A stretch of 64,000 nt of DNA, taken from positions 17,139 through 81,138 of the forward strand of contig JAGAMG010000024.1 of NCBI GenBank assembly GCA_017624835.1. The letters are read 5' to 3'. This document shows, piece after piece, positions 47,955-62,761 of the stretch. The stretch comes from Lachnospiraceae bacterium. GTDB lineage: Bacteria; Bacillota; Clostridia; Lachnospirales; Lachnospiraceae. The first letter of the stretch is position 1. Each line of letters opens with the position of its first letter. Position numbers and translations under genes: made by a program. The notes below the pieces were generated by a model that saw only the letters and a list, made by a program, of their open reading frames with translations, was not told where the DNA came from and made no database searches.

Positions 47955-48320
47955 TTATAAAAGATGTATGGGCATTTCCTCAGTTAAGTGACATACCGCA
48001 TTTACCGGATTCTGCATTTCCTGTGCTTTCTCTACATTCTTTTCAGGTGATTTTTTCTCAGCGGTAGTCTTTTTTGCTGCTGTTGTTTTCTTAGCTGCGG
48101 TATCCTTCTTTGTGACGTTTGCCTTCTTTGCAGCCACTTTCTTCTCTGCTGCCGGTTTCTTAGGTGCAGTATCCTTCTTTACAGGTGTTTCCTCTACTGC
48201 TTTTACTTCTGCTACCTTTACCTCGGCTTCCTGCTTTGCTACTGCCTTTTCCTGGACTGCTTCCGCTTTCACATTGGATGCCTTTGATGCTCTTTTAATG
48301 CTTCCTGCTCCTACTGCCAT
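47955..48320 (-). CDS. Lys/Ala-rich disordered protein, candidate BMC-positioning partner
   Basis: This 121-residue protein is a low-complexity chain of Lys, Ala, Thr and Val (blocks such as KKTTAAKKTTAEKK), predicted disordered and strongly basic. Only the last residues (NPVNAVCHLTEEMPIHLL) look ordered, resembling a short amphipathic tail. Its ATG lies inside the stop region of the ParA gene (10-bp overlap, ACATGGCAGTAG), implying coupled translation. The pairing of a ParA ATPase with an overlapping small disordered protein recalls the McdA/McdB system that spaces BMCs. Some basic low-complexity Lachnospiraceae proteins (histone-like or DUF6465) look similar at the N-terminus, so a nucleoid role remains possible. 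Confidence 0.55.
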   Translation of the reverse strand: MAVGAGSIKRASKASNVKAEAVQEKAVAKQEAEVKVAEVKAVEETPVKKDTAPKKPAAEKKVAAKKANVTKKDTAAKKTTAAKKTTAEKKSPEKNVEKAQEMQNPVNAVCHLTEEMPIHLL

Positions 48321-49102
48321 GTCTCATCAATCTCCTTTGCCAATTCCATATATTCACCTGCACTTCTGGCACTCTTTTTGTGTACCAGAATGGGTTTACT
48401 GTCATCCTGCGCCCATTCCACTTCACTGTCCACACGGATGATATGTTCAAATACATTTACGCCTTCCGTACTGCGCAGAGTCTCAACAGTCTGCTTATAG
48501 TAATTCTTTCTGGCATCCACCTTGGTAATGGCAATGCCAAGCAGCTCTAAATCTTCATTGATGCCACGTACATCCTCTAAAAACTCAAACATATTCGCCA
48601 CACCAAAAAGACCCCATGGGCTTGCCTCCACCGGCATAATCACATAATCGGAGGCACAAAGAATATTCATCACCCAGCCCCCCAAGGTAGGTGGTGCATC
48701 TATCAAAATATAATCATATTCACCGGAGGCTTTTATTTTTTTCAAACATCCTCTTAAGATAAATTCTCTTTGCCACTTGGTAAAAAGCTCATATTCCATA
48801 CCACTCATCAATGTGGAGGATGGAATCAAATCCAAATTTTCATAGGGAGTAGAAACAATATAATCGGACAAATCCTCCTGTTTTTTGATTGCCTGATATA
48901 AATTCTTTTCCCCTGTGGCAAATTCCAACACCTCATCCTCAGTAAAAAAAGACAGGGATAGATTCAACTGCATATCCCCGTCAATCAAAAGGACCTTTTT
49001 CCCCATGACCGAGAGGGAGTATCCTATGTTGGCGCAGGAAGTGGTCTTCCCGCTGCCACCCTTATTATTTGCAAATGCGATTATTCTAGTTTTCTTCTCC
49101 AT
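48311..49102 (-). CDS. ParA-family ATPase (McdA-like) in the BMC operon
   Basis: This protein of about 263 residues starts MEKKTRIIAFANNKGGSGKTT with the deviant Walker A (KGGxGKTT, signature Lys retained). LLIDGDMQLNLS and the Walker B YILIDAPPTLGG complete the ATPase. PVEASPWGLFGVANMFEFLEDV is typical of chromosome-type ParA. No ParB, centromere or plasmid genes are present, and the gene sits between the DeoR regulator and the Lys-rich protein inside a BMC operon, so cargo positioning (as for McdA on carboxysomes) is a better inference than plasmid partition. Start at 49102 overlaps the DeoR stop. Confidence 0.8.
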   Translation of the reverse strand: MEKKTRIIAFANNKGGSGKTTSCANIGYSLSVMGKKVLLIDGDMQLNLSLSFFTEDEVLEFATGEKNLYQAIKKQEDLSDYIVSTPYENLDLIPSSTLMSGMEYELFTKWQREFILRGCLKKIKASGEYDYILIDAPPTLGGWVMNILCASDYVIMPVEASPWGLFGVANMFEFLEDVRGINEDLELLGIAITKVDARKNYYKQTVETLRSTEGVNVFEHIIRVDSEVEWAQDDSKPILVHKKSARSAGEYMELAKEIDETWQ

Positions 49103-49856
49103 ACAGACAGACAATTCCTTTATCCTTGAAATATTCCATCCACGCATCGGACGGGCGTACATCAGTTACTACCATATCTATCCCACTCACTTCACAGATT
49201 TGTGAAAAAGCAATCTTTTCAAATTTTGTACTGTCCACTGCCAAAATCTTCTGGGAAGCAGAATGCAGCATTGCTTTCTTTACCTGTGAAAACATTTCAT
49301 TGGCATCGGTAATACCCTTTTCCATGTCAATTCCCTTACAGGACAAAATTACCTTATCCACATTAAAGGAATTAATACTTTCCACTGCCTTGGGTCCCAC
49401 CAGCGCCAAATAATTCTCACGAAGGGTGCCGCCTGTAGCTATCACATCCCAACCGGAGGCATCGGACAATTCCACCAAAACCTCTATGGAATTGGTTACA
49501 ACCGTCAGACGCTTTTTGCCCTTAAGGGCTTTCACAATGGATACTGCCGTAGTACTGGGATCCACAATAATATGATCCCCATCCGAAATCAATTCCTGAA
49601 TAATATCCGCAATAATTCGTTTACCCTGCATATTCTTTTTCTTGCGGACATTAAAAGGCATATCTGTATTATTATTTTCTGCAAGGACTGCTCCCCCATA
49701 GGTTTTGGTTGCCAATCCTTCCTTATCCAATCTGTCCAAATCTCTTCGGATAGTTTCCTCAGATACCCCAAATTGCTCACTTAATTCGTTAACAACAACC
49801 CTTTTTTCATCCTGGAGCTTTTCAAGTATCAGGTTCCTTCTCTCTGCTGCTAACAT
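49086..49856 (-). CDS. DeoR-family regulator of the propanediol BMC operon
   Basis: This 256-residue regulator has the DeoR N-terminal helix-turn-helix (RRNLILEKLQDEKRVVVNELSEQFGVSEETIRRDLDRLDKEGL) and a sugar-phosphate-isomerase-like C-terminal sensor domain (ADIIQELISDGDHIIVDPSTTAVSIVKAL). DeoR regulators commonly respond to sugar phosphates, so fuculose- or rhamnulose-phosphate is a reasonable effector. It is inside the operon, after pduT and before parA. A direct/inverted repeat near the operon promoter could be its site. Confidence 0.85.
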   Translation of the reverse strand: MLAAERRNLILEKLQDEKRVVVNELSEQFGVSEETIRRDLDRLDKEGLATKTYGGAVLAENNNTDMPFNVRKKKNMQGKRIIADIIQELISDGDHIIVDPSTTAVSIVKALKGKKRLTVVTNSIEVLVELSDASGWDVIATGGTLRENYLALVGPKAVESINSFNVDKVILSCKGIDMEKGITDANEMFSQVKKAMLHSASQKILAVDSTKFEKIAFSQICEVSGIDMVVTDVRPSDAWMEYFKDKGIVCLYGEEN

Positions 49857-49882: not shown

Positions 49883-50431
49883 CTACATAATAGACTTACA
49901 AATCTGCGGATCAGGATGTGCAATCACGGAGGAATCAAGGAACATTCCCTTCTCACCCACAGATGCCTTAGCCTTTGCAATGGCAGCCTCACAGGCTGCA
50001 ACCTCACCGGTAATCAGCATATAGGACTTACCGCACATACCCTTTGCAATACGAAGCTCAATGAGCTTTACAATAGCTGTCTTGGCTGCAATATCCGCTG
50101 CCACGATAATGGAAGCCGCATCATAGGTTTCTAAGATACCCAATGCATTTACCCCATCAATCTGACTGCTGCCGTAAATAGCCGGGAAGATGGACTCATC
50201 CGGATTGCCAAGTACAAAGCTGTCAATCAATTCATCCGCTCTTGTACTTTCCGCACGCTCAACAGCTGCCTTCACCGCACTCAAATCTCCTGCAATCAAT
50301 GCAATATATTTTCCGGGACATACGGTCTGCGCCTCTAAAAGCTCCACATCCGCTGTTTTTACCATCTGGTCTGCCGCGGTAATACCGGCTGAAACAGTCT
50401 TAAATTCAATCATTCCGATTGCTCTACTCAT
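49883..50431 (-). CDS. pduT: tandem BMC-T shell protein with Fe-S cluster (PduT-like)
   Basis: This protein of about 182 residues has two BMC domains (1-90 and 91-182) and forms trimers with pseudo-hexameric shape. Cys38 (QTVCPGKYIALI) is exactly where PduT binds a [4Fe-4S] cluster at the trimer centre. The start MSRAIGMIEFK at 50431 has GAGGAAG upstream. It follows pduS, and these two may form an electron channel across the shell. Confidence 0.88.
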   Translation of the reverse strand: MSRAIGMIEFKTVSAGITAADQMVKTADVELLEAQTVCPGKYIALIAGDLSAVKAAVERAESTRADELIDSFVLGNPDESIFPAIYGSSQIDGVNALGILETYDAASIIVAADIAAKTAIVKLIELRIAKGMCGKSYMLITGEVAACEAAIAKAKASVGEKGMFLDSSVIAHPDPQICKSIM

Positions 50432-50515
50432 GGTCTTCCTCATTTCTGTGTTTGTCTTTATTGCTACACACTTGGGAGCTCACGTTTTCCAAGCTCCACA
50501 TCATACAAATACAAG

Positions 50516-51841
50516 CTAACCTTCTACCAGCATTACATATCCATCCGCAACTTCCTTTACCGTACCGGTAATAGAAGCATGGATATTCACAGATAATCCG
50601 TCCGCTGCTGTACCAATAATGTCACCGCAGTTCACCTTATCACCAACTGCCACACTAGCCTTTGCCGGAGCACCGATATGCTGGGACAGATTTATTTTTA
50701 CTTCCTTGCTGCTTCTGATTACATCATCCAGCACTGCCGGCTTATCATAGCTGCTAAGTCCCAATCTGGAAAGGAGACGACCTTCCCATACTCTGCGGTA
50801 CTCACGGGAGTCCTTAACAGGAGTTGCCTCCACTACAGGGGGCTTGATGCCAGCCTTACGCAAACCATTCTTATATTCATTAATCATGGTTCTGGGAGAT
50901 AAGCCCTGAGGACAACTAAACATTTCACAAAGTCCACAGGCACTACAGAACATGGTGTCCAGATAGGTTTCTAGATTCTGAAAATCCTTATTCGCTGCCG
51001 CCCGCATAAATAAATGAGGCTGAATGGGATGTCCCAATGCATGTCTGGGGCATAAATCCGTACAGCTCTGGCACTGACAACAGCTGGATGCTGCTCTTGC
51101 CACTGCTGTGGAAAACCGATTGGTCTTTCGCAATACCAATACATGGTCTTCCGGCAACACTATTACTGCATTAGTGGTCTTGGTTACAGGCATATAGTCC
51201 TTCCCAAAATTCCCCATCATAGGACCGCCTAAAAGATAAACAGGCTTATCCGTGGTAATCCTGCCTGCCATGGCAACCACATCACGGATACGGGTTCCGA
51301 TGGGTACCCGGACAGTAATGGGATTTTCTACCTCTCCCACAACCGTTACACATTTATCCGTGACAGGATGGTTTTCCCATACTGCCCGATAAACGTTAAA
51401 TACCGTCTCCACGTTAAATACAGCCACACCACATTCAATGGGCAGCCCCCCGGGACGTACCACTCTTCCGGTTGCCTCATAAATCAAAACAACCTCATCA
51501 CCCATGGGATATGCTCCCGGTAATTTATGTATACGCACCATAGGAAACTCCGAAAGATATTCCTCCAAAGCCTCTATTGTGCTCTCATATTCTTCTTTAA
51601 TTCCGATAATTGCATCTTTTGCACCAACAGTTTCAGCAATTAGTGCAAATGCTTTCAAGATTTCCTGTGCGTGAACCTTCAAAAGCTGTCTGTGCAGCTT
51701 AAGGAGGGGTTCACACTCCGCGCAGTTCATGAGAATGGTATCCGCCTTGTCAGACAGCTTTCCATAAGTAGGAAATCCTGCTCCGCCGGCTCCCACGATA
51801 CCATTCTCTCTTAAGATTTTGCTTAAGTTAGCAATTTCCAT
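50516..51841 (-). CDS. pduS: PduS-like flavin/Fe-S oxidoreductase
   Basis: This 441-residue protein resembles PduS/RnfC. GAGGAGFPTYGKL and NCAECEPLL mark the N-terminal domain, followed by an NADH/FMN-like region and an SLBB-type segment. Two cluster motifs occur: CCQCQSCTDLCP and CSACGLCEMFSCP, which fit two [4Fe-4S] clusters. In Pdu systems PduS reduces cobalamin; here the dehydratase is B12-independent, so its partner must be something else (NADH-quinone-like recycling or activase reduction). It lies between eutN and pduT. Confidence 0.88.
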   Translation of the reverse strand: MEIANLSKILRENGIVGAGGAGFPTYGKLSDKADTILMNCAECEPLLKLHRQLLKVHAQEILKAFALIAETVGAKDAIIGIKEEYESTIEALEEYLSEFPMVRIHKLPGAYPMGDEVVLIYEATGRVVRPGGLPIECGVAVFNVETVFNVYRAVWENHPVTDKCVTVVGEVENPITVRVPIGTRIRDVVAMAGRITTDKPVYLLGGPMMGNFGKDYMPVTKTTNAVIVLPEDHVLVLRKTNRFSTAVARAASSCCQCQSCTDLCPRHALGHPIQPHLFMRAAANKDFQNLETYLDTMFCSACGLCEMFSCPQGLSPRTMINEYKNGLRKAGIKPPVVEATPVKDSREYRRVWEGRLLSRLGLSSYDKPAVLDDVIRSSKEVKINLSQHIGAPAKASVAVGDKVNCGDIIGTAADGLSVNIHASITGTVKEVADGYVMLVEG

Positions 51842-51847
51842 AACCTG

Positions 51848-52114
51848 TTACCCCAGCTTTCCGATATCATCAATAATTCCGACAATAGCGGCATCAATAG
51901 GAGCATCCGGCAATCCACAGCCGATGCGGGCAGCACTGCCCTGTGCCACTAAAACATACTCGCCAATTCCGGCACCAATATTATCAATGGCAACCAACTG
52001 CTTCTGTTCACCATTCATTATGTTTATAGGCTCAATTACCATGAACTTGTTACCAATCAGGTTATCCTGCTTGCGGGTTGAAACGATACTTCCTGTTACT
52101 TTTCCAATAATCAT
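51848..52114 (-). CDS. eutN: EutN/CcmL-type vertex protein (BMC-P)
   Basis: This protein of about 88 residues belongs to the pentameric BMC-P family that caps shell vertices. MIIGKVTGSIVSTRKQDNL, VAIDNIGAGIGEYVLVAQGSAAR and IDAAIVGIID are hallmarks. The ATG at 52114 is preferred to a GTG three codons upstream. It is packed between pduL and pduS. Confidence 0.9.
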   Translation of the reverse strand: MIIGKVTGSIVSTRKQDNLIGNKFMVIEPINIMNGEQKQLVAIDNIGAGIGEYVLVAQGSAARIGCGLPDAPIDAAIVGIIDDIGKLG

Positions 52115-52135
52115 TTCTATCACTCGTTCCCAAAT

Positions 52136-52789
52136 TTATTTAATGATAGCCACCTTGTCACCCTGCTTGATTTCACTTGCATTTGCCTCATCGGTATCAA
52201 TATGCATCTCAAGGGTAAAGCTCTCATCCACACGGATTTTTACATTGTTAAATGTAGTTCCGCGCTCATTTTCTACTTTTACGCTGACATAATCACCGTC
52301 ACTGACGCCGCATGCATTAGCATCTGCGGGAGACATATGAATATGTCTTGCTGCAACAATGCAGCCTTCCTTACAATATACAGCACCCTTAGGTCCTACA
52401 ATTGCAATGGGCGCACTTCCTGCGATGTCGCCGGATTCACGAACCGGTACATTGATTCCCAGCTTTCTGGCATCCGTACTGCTGATTTCCACCTGTGTAC
52501 TCTTACGGGCAGGTCCTAAAACTCTTACATTTTCAATTGCACGGAGCTTCAGTCCAACAATAGTACAGCATTCATTAGAAGCAAACTGACCACCCATCAG
52601 CTCTTTCTTTTTGGTAAGCTGATATCCGGGACCAAACAAAGCCTCCACATGCTCCTGGGACAAATGAATATGCCTATTACTCACACCCACCGGAACCAAA
52701 AATCCGTTGCCCTTTTCCTGCTGATTCTGCATACAGGATATAACCAATCTGGTTAAAGCTTCCAAATCCTTATTTTCCACTTCACTCAC
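52136..52789 (-). CDS. pduL: phosphate propanoyltransferase with encapsulation-like peptide
   Basis: PduL converts propionyl-CoA and phosphate to propionyl-phosphate and CoA. The zinc-binding motifs SNRHIHLS and ARHIHMSP with conserved NVRVLGPARK are present. An amphipathic N-terminal helix (LEALTRLVISCMQNQQ, about residues 9-24) ahead of a linker matches encapsulation peptides of BMC cargo. It starts at GTG with AAGGAAGGG just upstream. It is downstream of the large palindrome at 52874-53024. Confidence 0.92.
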   Translation of the reverse strand: MSEVENKDLEALTRLVISCMQNQQEKGNGFLVPVGVSNRHIHLSQEHVEALFGPGYQLTKKKELMGGQFASNECCTIVGLKLRAIENVRVLGPARKSTQVEISSTDARKLGINVPVRESGDIAGSAPIAIVGPKGAVYCKEGCIVAARHIHMSPADANACGVSDGDYVSVKVENERGTTFNNVKIRVDESFTLEMHIDTDEANASEIKQGDKVAIIK

Positions 52790-53087: not shown

Positions 53088-53366
53088 CTATTTGATAACA
53101 GGCAAAATTCCTTCAACATCAGTGTGAGGACGAGGAATTACGTGCTGAGCAACAAGCTCACCAAGTCTCTCTGCATTAGCTGCACCAGCTTCTACTGCAG
53201 ACTTAACAGCGCCTACATCACCACGTACCATAACGGTTACCAGACCGGAACCAATCTTCTCGGTACCTACCAATGCAACGTTTGCTGCCTTACACATAGA
53301 ATCTGCAGCCTCGATTGCTGCGATAAGTCCTCTAGTTTCAACCATTCCTAATGCTTCCTGTGCCAT
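53088..53366 (-). CDS. BMC-H shell protein (PduA/PduJ-like)
   Basis: This 92-residue hexameric shell protein has the BMC-H signature: [38 protein letters not shown] and [14 protein letters not shown]. The gap of about 300 bp after it holds the large palindrome. It is very similar to the protein at 53771-54055. Confidence 0.92.
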
Positions 53367-53464: not shown

Positions 53465-53764
53465 TTATTTTTTCTGAAGGCGTTTTGCGCTTTTTGCTAC
53501 TATCTTGCGAGTTTCCTCACAAGGGGATGCAATCACACCGGATGCCGCCAGAATATGATGATTCGCTTTTGCAATATTGGCTGCCGCTTCTACAGCTGCT
53601 TTCACATCGGAAACGCTGCCTTCCACAATAATGGTTACCAGACGGCCACCCAGCTTACGTTCCCAGGTTACCAGGGAAACATCTGCTGCCTTACACATCG
53701 CATCCAGGGAATCAATCGCAGCAACTACACCGGAAACTTCGATTAATCCGTATGAGCTACCCAT
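53465..53764 (-). CDS. BMC-H shell protein with basic C-terminal tail
   Basis: This 99-residue BMC-H protein has GLIEVSGVVAAIDSLDAMCKAADVSLV and VTIIVEGSVSDVKAAVEAA, and a C-terminal helix rich in Lys (IVAKSAKRLQKK). It is more divergent than its neighbours. It starts 6 bp before the end of the upstream BMC-H gene region, and its tail could bind other shell or cargo parts. Confidence 0.88.
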   Translation of the reverse strand: MGSSYGLIEVSGVVAAIDSLDAMCKAADVSLVTWERKLGGRLVTIIVEGSVSDVKAAVEAAANIAKANHHILAASGVIASPCEETRKIVAKSAKRLQKK

Positions 53765-53770
53765 AATCTA

Positions 53771-54055
53771 TTACGCCTTAGGGAATCCGGGAAGGATCTT
53801 CTCAACGTCATTGTGAGGACGGGGAATTACGTGCTGAGCAACTAACTCTCCAAGACGGCTTGCTGCTGCCGCACCGGATTCAACTGCTGCCTTAACAGCT
53901 CCTACGTCTCCACGAACCATAACGGTTACCAAACCGGAACCAATCTTCTCAGTACCTACTAAAGTAACCTCTGCGGACTTGGTCATTGCATCTGCTGCAT
54001 CAATTGCTGCTGTAAGTCCTCTTGTTTCTACCATTCCTAATGCTTCCTGTGCCAT
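53771..54055 (-). CDS. BMC-H shell protein (PduA/PduJ-like)
   Basis: The protein of about 94 residues starts at [13 protein letters not shown] (54055) with AGAGGAAA upstream. It is nearly identical in its core to the 53088-53366 product, with a changed C-terminal end ([15 protein letters not shown]). The pair probably arose by duplication. It is the main facet hexamer type by analogy with PduA/J. Confidence 0.92.
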
Positions 54056-54086
54056 TTTATTTCCTCTCTTTCTATCCATTCAAAAA

Positions 54087-54404
54087 TTAGTTGGTGTCAA
54101 AACCACATATATTTAACATTTTTAATGTGTCCTGTGTAGGTCTTGGTATTACATGACTCTGCACAACACCGGATACACTCTCTGCCATCTGGATTCCTGC
54201 TTCCACTGCAGCAGTTACATCTTCTACACTGCCACGGAATTTAACGGTTACCAGAAGGGGTACCGGAAGAGCATCTGCATTTGCCGGCTTATTCTTATCG
54301 AAGGGCTCTAATGTTACATTAGCCGCCTTACAGCCTGCATCCGCTGCCATGAAAGCACATACAAGTCCATAAACCTCCAGGATTCCTACTGCTCTCTCGT
54401 CCAT
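54087..54404 (-). CDS. BMC-H shell protein with loop insertion
   Basis: This 105-residue BMC domain protein has GILEVYGLVCAFMAADAGCKAANV and GSVEDVTAAVEAGIQMAESV. An insert of about ten residues (FDKNKPANADALP) sits where PduA-type proteins have a tight turn near the central strand, which may alter the pore. It is the first shell gene after the alcohol dehydrogenase, 114 bp downstream, with an intercistronic double hairpin between. Confidence 0.85.
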   Translation of the reverse strand: MDERAVGILEVYGLVCAFMAADAGCKAANVTLEPFDKNKPANADALPVPLLVTVKFRGSVEDVTAAVEAGIQMAESVSGVVQSHVIPRPTQDTLKMLNICGFDTN

Positions 54405-57633: not shown

Positions 57634-58479
57634 CTATTTCATTTCAGAAATAACCTTCTTAACGATTGCAGCAATTGCATCAGCATCTACGCCCTTGTTG
57701 CTGTCACAGTCACAACCGAAGTTGTACTCATAACCGGGGAACTTGCTGTAATCCATGCTACCGCAGCTTCCGCCACAGTTATGGCAGTTGTCGCCACCCT
57801 TATTTAAGCAAACGTTTGCAGGATGCTTACCGGGCATACCGAATTTACGACGGATTTCGTACAGCTTCTTAATATTCTCTTTATCAAATTCCTTAGGACC
57901 GCCAAGCATTTTGGACTTGTACAGAAGCTCTGCATAGAACTCCAAGCTTTCCATCTTGTGGTAAGCAGCCATCAAATCAGTACTCCAGGATAATGCACCA
58001 TGGCTCTCAAGCAGTACTGCATCGAAGTAAGGAAGATACTTCTCAAGATTATCAGGAATCTCCATAGTAGAAGGAGTACCATACTCAGCGATGGGCACAC
58101 AACCTAAAGAGATAACTGCTTCAGGCATGATGGGCTGGGTCAAAGGAATACCTGCAATTGCAAAAGCGGTTGCGAAGGTAGGATGTGCATGAACTACTGC
58201 TCCTACATCGGGACGCTTCTCATATACTCTCATATGCATTTTAATTTCGGATGAAGGCTTGAAGCCCTTGTTAGCCTGGATTACATTACCCTTTGCGTCT
58301 ACCTTACAGATAAATTCAGGGGTCATGAAGCCCTTAGAAACACCGGTAGGGGTGCAAAGGAATTCATTGTCGTTGAGCTTTACGGAGATGTTACCGTCAT
58401 TAGCTGCTACCATGTTGCGGTTGTAAATTCTTTTACCAACCTCACAAATTTGTTTTTTGATTTCCATTTCGTTCATCAT
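57634..58479 (-). CDS. fucA: L-fuculose-phosphate aldolase with Cys-rich linker and C-terminal encapsulation peptide
   Basis: This 281-residue class II aldolase cleaves fuculose-1-P or rhamnulose-1-P to DHAP and lactaldehyde. NDGNISVKL, SKGFMTPEFI and the zinc His-x-His in VVHAHPTFATAFA are typical. The C-terminus is extended by about 60 residues: a cysteine-rich part (residues about 223-262: CLNKGG, CHNCGGSC, CDCDS), then DADAIAAIVKKVISEMK, an encapsulation peptide. This matches FucA of BMC loci (GRM5 and PVM types). AAGGAGG lies before the start. Confidence 0.93.
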   Translation of the reverse strand: MMNEMEIKKQICEVGKRIYNRNMVAANDGNISVKLNDNEFLCTPTGVSKGFMTPEFICKVDAKGNVIQANKGFKPSSEIKMHMRVYEKRPDVGAVVHAHPTFATAFAIAGIPLTQPIMPEAVISLGCVPIAEYGTPSTMEIPDNLEKYLPYFDAVLLESHGALSWSTDLMAAYHKMESLEFYAELLYKSKMLGGPKEFDKENIKKLYEIRRKFGMPGKHPANVCLNKGGDNCHNCGGSCGSMDYSKFPGYEYNFGCDCDSNKGVDADAIAAIVKKVISEMK

Positions 58480-58566: not shown

Positions 58567-59028
58567 TTATTTTGTTAATTCAGAAGCCTTAATTTTTTCC
58601 GGCTCCTCCATAAGATAATTTAGTATTTCAGGTACCCCTTCCCCTTTTAGGGAATTTACATGGAATATTCTTGTACAACCTGCTACCTGCAGCCACCTGT
58701 CTGCCAATGGAACATTTGCGTTTGGCAGGTCTATCTTGGTTACAATTCCGATGCATTCACGGTTTGCCTGACTGGTTACATTGGGTGGAAACAGGGAATA
58801 GGGTTCATTTGCCGCCACTAAGATTCCCACCACATCTGCTTCATAGGTATATAAAGCAAGGGCTTTTCCAAGTCTGTGACTCTGGGCATATTCACCGGGA
58901 GTATCAATTACACTTTCGTAATAATGCACATCCTGGGTTTTATAATAATGGATTTCCTCTCCCCGAAGCGCCTGGGTCAGTGTGGTCTTACCGGCCTCGC
59001 TCCGCCCCATCAAAATCAGCTTTCTCAT
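58567..59028 (-). CDS. EutP/PduV-type small GTPase
   Basis: This 153-residue GTPase-like protein has the P-loop GRSEAGKTTL (residues 8-17), the DTPGEYA switch and TKIDLPNAN (NKxD-like TKID). It matches EutP/PduV proteins of BMC loci, which have been linked to shell attachment or organelle positioning; the function is not settled. It overlaps the end of the PduU-like gene by 4 bp. Confidence 0.85.
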   Translation of the reverse strand: MRKLILMGRSEAGKTTLTQALRGEEIHYYKTQDVHYYESVIDTPGEYAQSHRLGKALALYTYEADVVGILVAANEPYSLFPPNVTSQANRECIGIVTKIDLPNANVPLADRWLQVAGCTRIFHVNSLKGEGVPEILNYLMEEPEKIKASELTK

Positions 59029-59411
59029 GTCTTTGTAATGGTGCAGACTGTGTAATTTAATTTATCTTTTACATATTCCAAAGCCGCTTCCATTGCTGCC
59101 TGTACCTCACTTACGGTACCTGTGATAATCATGGAACCGCTGAAACGGTCTACAAAGCCAAGAGTAATACCGCTGGCTTTCAAGGCAACATCCGCCATGA
59201 TAATTGCAGTTTCGGAAGGTGTAACTGTGGTTACACCAATGGCAGCCTTTTCATAGTCCACCTTAGGATCCAAGCCCAGCTTCTGATAAAGAATTTTATC
59301 AGGACTTGCAATAATGTGCGCAAGTGTTACCTGACAGCCGGGAACATATTCCTGAATAATTCGCATATGCTCTTCATTATTCAGCATTGATACGTCAAAA
59401 TTTCCTCTCAT
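59025..59411 (-). CDS. EutS/PduU-type shell protein (permuted BMC-H)
   Basis: This 128-residue protein is a circularly permuted BMC domain: IIQEYVPGCQVTLAHIIASPDKILYQKLGL and VTPSETAIIMADVALKASG with GFVDRFSGSMIITGTVSEV. It closely resembles PduU, forming hexamers with a small beta-barrel on the pore. It sits just after the activase gene. Confidence 0.92.
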   Translation of the reverse strand: MRGNFDVSMLNNEEHMRIIQEYVPGCQVTLAHIIASPDKILYQKLGLDPKVDYEKAAIGVTTVTPSETAIIMADVALKASGITLGFVDRFSGSMIITGTVSEVQAAMEAALEYVKDKLNYTVCTITKT

Positions 59412-59439: not shown

Positions 59440-60234
59440 TTAACCGCCTATCTGACAATTTAACCTTGATACATTTTCCACTACTTTTTTTAGCATATCC
59501 ATATGCTCGTTTTCCGGGGGCAGGATACCATCCATCAGGTATTCCCTGCCAAGCCCCTCATATTTGTCCTGCCCTAATCTGTGATAAGGCAACAAGTGTA
59601 TCTTATCCACACCGGGCAGCTTATCTGCAAACTGTGCAATTCCTGCGATTTCCTCCGGTGTAGCATTAAAGGTAGGAATCACAGGCACCCGGATTACTAA
59701 CCGGGTCTTTCCTGATGCCGCAATCTTTCTAGCGTTTTCCAGCATCATCTCATTGCTCATTCCTGTAAATTCTTTATGCTTTGCTGGATTGGTATGCTTG
59801 ATATCCATCAAATAAGTATCCAGATAGGGAAGAATTTCTTCTATCACCTCGAATGGTGCGCAGCCCATACTCTCCATAGCTGTGGAAATCCCCTTAGCTT
59901 TCGCTGTCTGCAAAAGAGCTTTTGCAAACTTTGGCTGACAAAGACTTTCTCCTCCGGAAAGGGTAATACCACCACCACTTCTGCGATAATAGGCTCTGTC
60001 CTTCTCTACAACCTCCATAACCTCTGCAACCGTCACATCCCGTCCGATAACCTTGGGCTTGCCGTCCACCATCATGGTCTGAATGACATATTCCTGAGAC
60101 TCGGGGTTACAGCACCAGCGGCATCGTAACACACAGCCTTTCAGGAATACGATGGTTCTTATGCCCATTCCGTCATGGATGGAATATCGCTGGATATCAA
60201 AAATACGACCTTTTGTCTGTAATAAATCTTCCAT
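59440..60234 (-). CDS. glycyl radical enzyme activating protein (radical SAM), short form
   Basis: This protein of about 264 residues has the radical SAM motif CVLRCRWCCNP (Cys34, Cys38, Cys41) and the glycine-rich GGGITLSGGESL. It activates the adjacent dehydratase by forming the glycyl radical. Most activases of this type have a ferredoxin-like insert with eight cysteines after the CxxxCxxC motif; here no such cysteines follow (YVIQTMMVDGKPKVIGRDVTV). The start at 60234 overlaps the dehydratase stop region; an earlier in-frame ATG at 60306 would lie inside the dehydratase gene. Confidence 0.88.
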   Translation of the reverse strand: MEDLLQTKGRIFDIQRYSIHDGMGIRTIVFLKGCVLRCRWCCNPESQEYVIQTMMVDGKPKVIGRDVTVAEVMEVVEKDRAYYRRSGGGITLSGGESLCQPKFAKALLQTAKAKGISTAMESMGCAPFEVIEEILPYLDTYLMDIKHTNPAKHKEFTGMSNEMMLENARKIAASGKTRLVIRVPVIPTFNATPEEIAGIAQFADKLPGVDKIHLLPYHRLGQDKYEGLGREYLMDGILPPENEHMDMLKKVVENVSRLNCQIGG

Positions 60235-60235
60235 A

Positions 60236-62761
60236 TTAAAATCCCTGTTCTGTTCTACGGATGATATCATCCTGCAAGCTCTTGGAAAGTGTGGTAAACA
60301 GTGCACTGTAGCCTGCTACACGAACTACCAGATGCTTGTAGTTTTCGGGATGCTTCTGTGCATCAAGCAAGGTCTCTCTGGACACTACATTAAACTGCAC
60401 ATGACTTCCCTTTCTGTCAAAGTAGCTGCGAATCAGATTTACAAAATTATCAAGTCCTGCTTCTCCGCTTAAAGCAGAAGGATGGAATTTCTGGTTATAC
60501 AAGGTACCGTTGGAAGCAATACCGTGATCCAATTTGGATACGGAATTGGCTGCTGCGGTAGGTCCGTTTACATCCTTTCCTGCGGAAGGAGAAACACCAT
60601 CCGCCATAGGAGTACCGGCAAGTCTGCCGTCGGGAGTTGCTCCGGTCTGTGCACCAAGGGGAACGTTAGCAGATACGGGATAAAGACCTGCCTGGAACTG
60701 TCCTCCTCTGGGGTTATAATACTGAAGTAACGGTTTGGTGTATGTATAGGCAGCCTCTCTTGCCATCATATCCACTTCTTCTTCGTCATTTCCGAATTTT
60801 GCAAGATTATCAATCATTGCCAAAAGCTCTTCAAATTTCTTTTTATCTTCTGCAGTTACGGACTGCTTAATAATTTCCTGGCTGGCTCTTGCCACAGTAT
60901 CTGAGTTGGGCTCTATGCCCTTCTGCGCCATTTCTCTTGCCACATTTCCTGCCACCTGGGCAACTACCAGAGGACTTACCTCCTGTCCGTAATTGAACAT
61001 TAATGCTTTTTTGTATTCCGCTAAAGTAACCTTCTTTTCCTCAAAGACAAGCTTCTTAATTGCATAAAGGGAATCTGCCACGTTTGCGATACCAAAGCCC
61101 TGAGGTCCGGTAAAGTTGTAAACACAACCGCCCTGCTCACAGGTCTTGCCTCTTGCCATACAGTCATCCACCATACTTGCTAAGTAAGGCAGAGGCATAC
61201 GCTCTGTATGAGCCTGGTCAATGGCATTATCCGCATTTACCAAAAGAGCAATAAAGTAATTCATTTGCTCCTGATATGCTGCATAGAACTCATCAAAGGT
61301 TCTCATCTGCTCCACCGGCTGGGTCTTGGGTCCAATCTGCTCGCCACAATCCATACCGCTGGTAAATACCAGTTCCAAAGGACGGCACATATTATAAAAT
61401 GCTGCATCATGCCACCCCATGGTTTTGCCGGGAACCTGAGGCTCCACACAACCAATGATATTATAGCTTCTTGCTTCCTCCAAAGTCAGTCCTCTGCTCA
61501 TTAGGGAAGGAATAATCACTTCGTCATTGTAATATGCCGGAAGTCCGATACCGGTTCTGGTAAGCTCTGCTGCACGAATCAACAAATCGTGGGGAGAGCC
61601 GTTCCATACACGGATGGATAAGGAAGGCATGGGAAGGAATACATGGAAGGAAGCCTCTATACACATAAAGGACAAATCATTAGTTACATCCTGTCCTGCC
61701 TCATTCTGTCCACCTACTATCAGGTTCTGGAATAAGCTATATCCCGCAAAGCCCTTTGCACTTTCTGCATCCCTGCATTTATTCAAATCATTTAATTTTA
61801 CCCAGATACAGTCAATCAACTCCTGCGCCTGTTCTCTGGTAATTTTTCCTGCATCAATATCCTTCTTATAATAAGGATACATATATTGGTCAAAACGACC
61901 GGGAGAAATGGAATGTCCTGAGGACTCCATCTGTAATAACTGCTGTACAAACCAAAAGCTCTGGCATGCCTCATGGAAGGTGGTTGCACCCTCAGCAGGT
62001 ACCTTACGGCAATTGGAAGCAATGGTCTCAAGCTCTGCCTTACGAACTGCATCATTACATTCCTTTGCCATCTTGGCAGCAAGCTCTGCATATCTGTTGG
62101 CATACAGGATAACTGCCTCACAGCTGATAATCACTGCCTCTAAGAAACGGCTCTTGGTAGCATAATCCGCATCACCCACACCGCATTTGGCAAGCTCCGC
62201 CTTCGCCTCAGCAATAATTCCCTCATAACCGATAGCTAACACCTTATCGTACTGTACGGTAATATGTCCTACACCATTGTAAAAATAATTACCCGGTGTG
62301 AAAATATTATGTTCCATAGCCTTCAAGGCTTCCGGTGCCATATAAGCAGTTGCCAACTCACTGGTGGTCTTGCCCTTCCAATAGCTGTTTGCTTCCTTTA
62401 TTTCCTTCTTTGCCTTATCGGAAATATAGAAGGGGTCTGCTTCTCTGGTTGCCACCGTCTCAAACTCCTGCTCCAGCCATTCATAGGAAAATTCCGGGAA
62501 AGTCTGACAGCCTCTGGGAGCGATTGTGGAGCTTCCTACAATCAACTCATCCTCTCTAATAATAATAGGAATATTCTTTAAAATATGCTCGAACGCCTTA
62601 GCACGTCTTATAATCAGCGGCTCATTTTCCGTCTGCTTATAGCTCTCTGTCACAAGCACCGCTCTGGCAGATTCAATCTCAGGCATCTTAGCATAAAGAT
62701 GCTCAACCAATCTGGTAATTCTTTCTGTTTTTGGAATTCTGGAACTATTGTACTTCGCCAT
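60236..62761 (-). CDS. B12-independent propanediol dehydratase (glycyl radical enzyme)
   Basis: This 841-residue enzyme removes water from 1,2-propanediol without cobalamin. It has the thiyl Cys438 and Glu440 (NIIGCVEPQ), His166 and His283, and the glycyl radical Gly817 (RVAGYSALF), as in the Roseburia inulinivorans-type enzyme. No encapsulation peptide extension is visible at the N-terminus, which begins directly with the catalytic fold (MAKYNSSRIPKTERI). It is the first gene of the BMC operon, with a 5' leader of about 175 nt and a strong promoter. Confidence 0.93.
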   Translation of the reverse strand: MAKYNSSRIPKTERITRLVEHLYAKMPEIESARAVLVTESYKQTENEPLIIRRAKAFEHILKNIPIIIREDELIVGSSTIAPRGCQTFPEFSYEWLEQEFETVATREADPFYISDKAKKEIKEANSYWKGKTTSELATAYMAPEALKAMEHNIFTPGNYFYNGVGHITVQYDKVLAIGYEGIIAEAKAELAKCGVGDADYATKSRFLEAVIISCEAVILYANRYAELAAKMAKECNDAVRKAELETIASNCRKVPAEGATTFHEACQSFWFVQQLLQMESSGHSISPGRFDQYMYPYYKKDIDAGKITREQAQELIDCIWVKLNDLNKCRDAESAKGFAGYSLFQNLIVGGQNEAGQDVTNDLSFMCIEASFHVFLPMPSLSIRVWNGSPHDLLIRAAELTRTGIGLPAYYNDEVIIPSLMSRGLTLEEARSYNIIGCVEPQVPGKTMGWHDAAFYNMCRPLELVFTSGMDCGEQIGPKTQPVEQMRTFDEFYAAYQEQMNYFIALLVNADNAIDQAHTERMPLPYLASMVDDCMARGKTCEQGGCVYNFTGPQGFGIANVADSLYAIKKLVFEEKKVTLAEYKKALMFNYGQEVSPLVVAQVAGNVAREMAQKGIEPNSDTVARASQEIIKQSVTAEDKKKFEELLAMIDNLAKFGNDEEEVDMMAREAAYTYTKPLLQYYNPRGGQFQAGLYPVSANVPLGAQTGATPDGRLAGTPMADGVSPSAGKDVNGPTAAANSVSKLDHGIASNGTLYNQKFHPSALSGEAGLDNFVNLIRSYFDRKGSHVQFNVVSRETLLDAQKHPENYKHLVVRVAGYSALFTTLSKSLQDDIIRRTEQGF

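Follow-up and report, generated by a model that had tools for sequence, protein, structure and literature searches.

A ParA-type ATPase and a two-ended adaptor as a candidate positioning module for the GRM5 microcompartments of Lachnospiraceae

A GRM5 locus ending in a ParA gene pair

The stretch of DNA analysed, 64 kb from the genome of a Lachnospiraceae bacterium (GCA_017624835.1) and referred to here as the window, holds on its minus strand a bacterial microcompartment (BMC) locus that profile matches and gene content place in the GRM5 (fucose/rhamnose) type. Read from its far end, the locus opens with a glycyl-radical enzyme and its activase, an extra BMC-domain gene, PduV and a class II aldolase. 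It continues with an HbpS-like (DUF336) protein, an aldehyde dehydrogenase, a Zn-type alcohol dehydrogenase, four single-BMC-domain genes and PduL, and it closes with an EutN/CcmL-type vertex protein, a PduS-like protein, BMC-T and a DeoR regulator, followed by parA and the gene of a small protein termed here the adaptor. Downstream of the adaptor lie genes for lactaldehyde reductase, a MarR-type regulator and citrate synthase. The first-pass annotation had placed the pair in a glycyl-radical BMC operon, and the GRM5 gene set around it confirmed this: glycyl-radical enzyme and activase, class II aldolase, PduS, DUF336 protein, DeoR and shell genes are all present. The features of the locus are as follows.

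47955..48320, minus strand: adaptor, 121 aa, with a low-complexity Lys/Ala-rich middle and both end motifs common to its family
47958..47987, minus strand: C-terminal motif of the adaptor, LTEEMPIHLL, a tail predicted to touch the shell
48288..48320, minus strand: N-terminal motif of the adaptor, MAVGAGSIKRA, the end predicted to contact ParA
48311..49102, minus strand: ParA/MinD-family ATPase, 263 aa (AAA_31, 1.5e-53), with motifs KGGSGKTT, IDGDMQ and LIDAPPT
49086..49856, minus strand: DeoR-family regulator, overlapping parA by 17 bp
49883..50443, minus strand: BMC-T shell protein (PduT-like)
50516..51841, minus strand: PduS/RnfC-like flavoprotein
51848..52123, minus strand: BMC-P vertex protein (EutN/CcmL)
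52136..52789, minus strand: PduL phosphotransacylase
53088-53366, 53465-53764, 53771-54079 and 54087-54404, minus strand: four single-BMC-domain shell genes
57634..58479, minus strand: class II aldolase, GRM5 marker
58567..59028, minus strand: PduV/EutP-like GTPase (PF10662, 1.3e-48), an independent positioning candidate
59440..62761, minus strand: glycyl-radical enzyme (60236-62761) and activase (59440-60306)

The overlap between parA and the small basic gene is 10 bp (48311-48320), as had been reported at first pass. The seven BMC-domain matches in the genome all fall at this locus, on contig C18, and the two further ParA-like places of the genome are far weaker than the window ParA. Elsewhere in the locus, a BMC-domain protein at 59025-59411 carries about 56 residues ahead of its domain. 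Rfam searches at gathering scores gave no matches between 42 and 64 kb of the window, and promoter and terminator scans of the window stayed at chance level. The earlier statement that neither ParB nor a centromere accompanies the pair held to this extent: the gene adjoining parA has no ParB match, and the canonical parS sequence gave 0 matches at up to 3 mismatches in the 64 kb, a scan that covers the canonical consensus and not divergent centromeres.

The ATPase

That the larger protein is a ParA-type ATPase was confirmed by its Walker motif (KGGSGKTT, within NNKGGSGKTT) and by its AAA_31 match, which was accompanied by a match to CbiA (5.8e-20); the motif is the deviant Walker A of ParA/MinD ATPases, one of the marks of McdAB systems. 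Its start was taken as the ATG at 49102, which fits the homologues; an in-frame ATG lies upstream at 49162. Twenty aligned homologues are 60-84% identical to it, and across the 21-sequence alignment the ATPase motifs and two basic residues, R198 and R246, are invariant. In the closest solved ParA, 8ray, an arginine aligns to R198 and a lysine to R246, in regions that presumably bind DNA. By structure matches, the window protein is closer to ParA/Soj (8ray, 4.9e-34; 1wcv, 2.2e-27) than to the McdA-named chain 6noo (3.8e-14). The nearest ParAs outside its clade, among the matches listed from a plasmid collection, have 39-44% identity and ParB genes alongside. A recent plasmid or phage source of the gene was considered and rejected, since the best listed matches reached 43.5% (plasmid, among the 5,000 best records) and 36.3% (phage) identity.

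An adaptor with near-fixed ends

The window adaptor is rich in lysine and alanine (K25 A24 V14 E14), with 26 K+R against 16 D+E and a pI of 9.7, and it gave no match to Pfam or NCBIfam at E<=0.001. Its relatives were sought at 125 ParA loci, the window included and with duplicates between sets retained. An ORF with the N-terminal motif stands directly behind parA in 102 of these, 101 of them complete and 84 distinct, the window adaptor being one. Among the 23 loci that have no such ORF are a mini-form, loci with RNase G and NUDIX genes, and a clade with AraC-type neighbours.

Both ends of the adaptor are near-fixed, VGxGSIxRA at the N-terminus and LPx[Y/H/F/W]L[L/M] at the C-terminus, and the middle is unconserved. 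As the adaptors were chosen by the N-terminal motif alone, its conservation (R10 in 83/84, K or R at position 5 or 9 in 82/84) is partly by construction, and it is the C-terminus that provides an independent test. There, proline at -5 and leucine at -2 occur in 84/84 proteins, L, M or I at -6 in all 84, and L or M at -1 in 83. Residue -3 is tyrosine in 63, histidine in 17 (among them the window copy), phenylalanine in three and tryptophan in one. The pattern [LMI]Px[YHFW]L[LMR] ends 101/101 complete adaptors, compared with 1 of 6,354 other ORFs of the same loci, these being six-frame ORFs of at least 60 aa of which many are likely not genes. Across the 84, the shortest protein has 61 aa and the longest 232, and net charge per residue spans -0.06 to +0.16, so that both length and basicity vary between ends that are kept. 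The description of a strongly basic, low-complexity protein therefore suits the window copy, which is Lys/Ala-rich, and does not extend to the family, where basicity varies.

Two of the marks by which McdB-like partners are recognised can be read from these ends. A basic N-terminal motif in an adjacent small low-complexity partner is present, in a set that was selected by that motif; a C-terminal aromatic within the last five residues is found in 67/84 (Y, F or W) and is missing from the window copy, which ends in PIHLL. For the short tail that the first-pass annotation had described as ordered, what the comparison shows is conservation of sequence. A separate, 51-aa mini-adaptor (MSVSKKSISR...TLPIHLL; L024; L053:8104-8259, genome G061) was seen in another family behind a 60% identical ParA, and no homologues of the window shell genes were found around it in the 17-kb stretch of L053.

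Distribution with microcompartments

The first-pass annotation had proposed a survey of related genomes for conservation of the pair and its co-occurrence with BMCs; in the searches made here the pair is conserved, and the ParA carriers have shell genes. Among 99 relatives searched, a ParA at E<=2.7e-100 (59-100% identity) was found in 16 genomes, that of the window included, and the next match below them stood at 2.2e-39. Of the 14 next-best ParA loci that were fetched (L026-L039), 11 had a Spo0J-like ORF, as expected for Soj. BMC domains were present in 30/99 relatives, with all 16 ParA carriers among them. Within the genus of the window, ParA occurs in 15/19 BMC-bearing genomes, 13 of the 15 with the adaptor, and in 0/42 genomes lacking BMC genes. 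The four BMC-bearing genus-mates without ParA are G041, G050, G012 and G052. G041 has a complete-looking GRM5-like locus (L055) in which DeoR is followed by citrate synthase, with parA and adaptor absent between them; the loci of G050 and G012 end at contig ends, and G052 has no ParA within the fetched stretch.

A family-wide draw of 396 genomes, again with the window genome included and with the ParA and BMC searches taken as the same draw, gave a close ParA (E<=1e-55) in 40, one of which (G445) was a partial match. Shell genes were found in 40/40 of these and in 76/356 of the remainder (Fisher 1.7e-24, kinship ignored), and none of the 280 genomes lacking BMC genes had a close ParA. Three genera of the draw (g81, g86, g137) each had one member with both BMC genes and ParA and one with neither. 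Across a class-wide draw of 391 genomes, the four ParA matches at E<=1e-48 were that of the window genome and three from one other family, all three BMC-bearing. In the sets searched, ParA is confined to BMC-bearing genomes.

It is also tied to a compartment type. The GRM5 aldolase was found at E<=1e-100 in 74 of the 116 BMC-bearing genomes, and ParA in 37 of those 74 versus 3 of the 42 without it. Two of these three have a distant aldolase on the contig with the shell genes; in the third, G134, which has a single BMC match, the aldolase was not found.

A second collection, which overlaps the first, took the best 80 of 501 ParA loci, each with at most 10 kb on either side, and distant ParA members are under-sampled as a result. 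Linkage was judged by tblastn with the window shell proteins, in genomes of which many are draft MAGs. A shell gene lay within the fetched stretch at 42 of the best 80 loci (40 with the adaptor) and not at the other 38 (30 with the adaptor), the adaptor thus being present at 70. All 38 genomes of the unlinked loci are BMC-bearing (33, a further four, and that of L120, taken to be G026; G904 by a single match at 1.2e-12), so the co-occurrence is more than hitch-hiking in an operon. Named carriers of an unlinked pair are Blautia massiliensis (L147), Blautia wexlerae (L150), Robinsoniella peoriensis (L122) and Konateibacter massiliensis (L163). Read by eye, the pair of B. massiliensis stands alone between genes that are not BMC-like, and in G026 (L048) DeoR, ParA and adaptor occur as a trio on a contig separate from the shell genes. 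Faecalicatena (L139, L155) has ParA without the adaptor. An equal frequency of the pair outside BMC loci had been named in advance as evidence against a BMC role; by location this came half true, with 30 of the 70 pairs unlinked, and by genome content it did not.

ParAs without an adaptor

On the ParA tree, a well-supported clade without a recognisable adaptor is made up of 13 rows with AraC-type neighbours and three others. The genomes of the AraC-neighbour clade are all BMC-bearing, the AraC-type gene behind parA having been read by eye. AraC-neighbour loci with no adaptor in the stretch are L132, L137, L139, L146, L148, L155, L160 and L164, and also L066, L069, L074, L076, L084, L086 and L088. 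In another setting, a ParA lies between RNase G and a NUDIX hydrolase (names by eye) in two BMC-bearing genus-mates, at L052:7608-8414 in G039 and L054:5461-6291 in G023; at these loci (also L023 and L025) the adaptor and nearby shell genes are absent.

Displaced adaptors were searched for with a DNA pattern for the N-terminal motif, which recovered 83 of the 102 known adaptors and so misses about one in five. Applied to 38 genome labels, at least two pairs of which are one genome each judging by identical BMC positions (G237/G501 and G297/G508), it recovered the adaptor in 4/4 positive controls. The listed matches, 24 in number, were all checked, and the remaining 34 labels yielded no ORF resembling an adaptor. 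In the 37 GRM5-like genomes without ParA, none of 21 matches was an adaptor. As these searches gave no adaptor, the AraC-neighbour ParAs seem to have no partner, and where ParA is absent the adaptor seems to be absent too.

Adaptors with a ParB domain

Six adaptors have both family ends with, between them, what Pfam and matches to sequences in the PDB identify as a ParB_N domain, in each case above the Pfam gathering score.

L065, 2273-2803: ParB_N adaptor, Pfam 1.1e-13
L078, 2276-2821: ParB_N adaptor, Pfam 5.8e-10
L144, 10220-10660: ParB_N adaptor, Pfam 1.2e-10
L145, 10776-11423: ParB_N adaptor, Pfam 9.1e-10
L170, 1001-1501, minus strand: ParB_N adaptor from another bacterial family, Pfam 6e-11
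L171, 2274-2894: ParB_N adaptor from another bacterial family, Pfam 6.2e-9

The best solved-structure match of L065 is Noc (1.5e-10), the GxxR motif aligns in 6/6, and all six genomes are BMC-bearing. The ParB HTH model gave no match at E<=1 in any of the six. By comparison, the outgroup ParA L172 has next to it a ParB with both domains above cut-off, and the partner at L173, annotated as ParB, fell under both cut-offs. An AlphaFold2 model of L145 (with L144 only) had a mean pLDDT of 47.7, too low to inform on the fold.

On the ParA tree the ParB_N label occurs in at least three separate places and requires four changes, at least three of them forced by starred branches, a pattern compatible with repeated loss, repeated gain or partner swapping; once the outgroups are set apart, L170/L171 branch off first, with support (85/89) under the star threshold. 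Descent from the ParB beside the outgroup ParAs was considered and not supported: Spo0J-like proteins are the best-scoring matches of all six adaptors, and L145 is the one adaptor with an outgroup ParB, in third place, within the six top matches listed. Tentatively, organelle-positioning adaptors and ParB could be evolutionarily connected, the ParB_N forms, with a CTPase-fold domain and its GxxR nucleotide motif but no DNA-binding domain, being nucleotide-switched adaptors that grip an organelle rather than a centromere, and the window form, which lost or never had the domain, using a disordered linker; we hold this to be a possibility that is somewhat doubtful. The main text of a 2025 survey of the ParB fold does not mention microcompartment, carboxysome, organelle or McdB (PMC12704722), and the literature matches listed include none that describes a BMC adaptor with a ParB domain.

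A positioning model and its alternatives

Our preferred reading, to which we give a probability of roughly 0.7, is that the pair works like McdAB and positions the GRM5 microcompartment, probably spreading these sugar-degrading organelles through the cell; nucleoid binding, ATPase stimulation, shell docking and spacing are the inferred parts of it. ATP-bound ParA dimers would coat the nucleoid and the adaptor would act as a tether. Its N-terminal VGxGSIxRA, with the near-invariant Arg10, would touch the ParA dimer and trigger its release, the flexible middle would bridge the gap between ParA and shell, and the C-terminal motif (hydrophobic-x-x-acidic-L-P-x-Y/H-L-L) would dock on the shell. Release of ParA would leave a depleted zone, and the compartments would move apart and be shared between daughter cells. 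The conserved ends of the adaptor would fit these two contact tasks. Counting against a two-part machine is the ParA clade without a recognisable adaptor. Also weighing against the positioning model are the histidine at -3 of the window adaptor, the adaptor-free ParAs of G023 and G039, and PduV as a competing candidate. ParA is absent in 37/74 GRM5-like genomes and the locus of G041 lacks the pair, so the pair is dispensable.

An effect on position could also be secondary to one on biogenesis, with the pair controlling shell assembly, condensation or fission as a ParA-driven assembly chaperone. The co-occurrence with BMCs fits this equally, McdB proteins form condensates (PMC10554743, PMC11321042), and a Lys/Ala/Pro-rich low-complexity middle would suit such a role. 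However, the absence of ParA from half of the GRM5-like genomes points to assembly that proceeds without need of it, partners with basic N-terminal motifs join ParA/MinD ATPases to cargo in the named systems (PMC12204374), and we consider biogenesis unlikely as the primary role. It is highly improbable, in our estimate, that the compartment is positioned by the PduV of the locus while the ParA pair has another BMC-linked task: PduV has been proposed as the positioner of Pdu compartments (PMC8262871), but the two are not exclusive, and it is the ParA-adaptor design that has experimental backing, in carboxysome systems.

The AKKPAAKK-like repeats of the Lys/Ala-rich protein, the overlap of parA with the DeoR gene and the trio in G026 would suit a histone-H1-like DNA binder, with ParA as co-regulator of BMC transcription alongside DeoR, i.e., a regulatory or nucleoid-tethering role. 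Set against this, the basicity of the adaptor is not conserved among the 84 distinct proteins and both of its ends are, and, among the unlinked loci listed, the fetched stretches contained no homologue of the window DeoR; we regard regulation as quite improbable. The least probable of these readings is that the pair was left behind in a BMC locus by a ParAB partition system, of a plasmid or of a chromosome. The ParB genes that adjoin the nearest out-of-clade ParAs and the ParB N-domain in six relatives of the adaptor would be its traces, yet parS is lacking at up to 3 mismatches, ParA tracks BMC genomes even where it is unlinked, and the ends of the adaptor are strongly constrained.

Significance

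A positioning module of this kind touches on how catabolic microcompartments are placed and inherited, and a 2025 review expected that directed studies on non-carboxysome BMCs would reveal new strategies (PMC13052382). With its small size, its two defined ends and its presence as a pair in named strains, the module lends itself to direct tests. The C-terminal 10-mer of the adaptor may serve as a portable tag for addressing proteins to GRM5 shells. Should the ParB-domain forms prove to be true intermediates, the partition of DNA and that of organelles would be connected at the adaptor, and not only at the ATPase.

Comparison with known systems

The locus itself is a familiar one. Axen et al. 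(2014) described GRM5 by a near-same gene set, with glycyl-radical enzyme, class II aldolase, PduS, DUF336 protein and DeoR, as here; ParA is not among the ancillary genes given in their GRM5 passage, and is named for carboxysome loci and in their general summary (PMC4207490). With ParABS the pair shares the ParA fold and, at the N-terminus of the partner, a motif for ParA contact, predicted here: VG[K/A]GSI resembles the LG-R/K-GL through which canonical ParB contacts ParA (PMC12704722). It differs in that no parS was found in the window at the mismatches allowed, that the partner, which matched no Pfam family at E<=0.001, is not a ParB of the kind that has an HTH and a dimerisation domain, and that its end motif is BMC-linked.

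McdA/McdB had been put forward as the closest known design. What stood of this is the conserved pair, its BMC-bearing carriers and the two-ended adaptor. As in the McdAB of alpha- and beta-carboxysomes, a ParA-type ATPase and a small partner go with a BMC cargo. The partner is of low complexity here and largely disordered in McdAB, and it has a basic N-terminal motif and a short C-terminal one in which one residue is conserved and mostly aromatic. In Halothiobacillus, the first 20 residues of McdB are enough to bind McdA (PMC12204374), and the C-terminal aromatic mediates carboxysome binding, with Y or F in McdB-like proteins of other BMCs (PMC11321042). What did not stand is the strict McdB label: the cargo is a catabolic GRM5 compartment and not a carboxysome, and the window copy lacks the C-terminal aromatic, so the likeness proposed for it is one of function. 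In place of the invariant Trp of McdB are Tyr, His or Phe (His in the window), and some relatives have a ParB N-domain.

Nor is the idea of McdAB-like positioning of metabolosomes itself new. Such genes have been predicted in print near PDU and GRM loci (PMC11321042), for EUT and PDU (PMC13052382) and for "several BMC operons" (PMC8262871), in passages that do not describe experiments on such a system. Like these predictions, the pair described here has McdA/B-like genes at metabolosome loci, with Tyr or Phe in the last five residues; unlike them, it has His in 17/84, unlinked co-occurrence, a link to the aldolase-type GRM5 and ParB-domain forms. As far as we have checked, the unlinked co-occurrence, the GRM5 link, the two-motif signature and the six relatives with a ParB N-domain are what is new.
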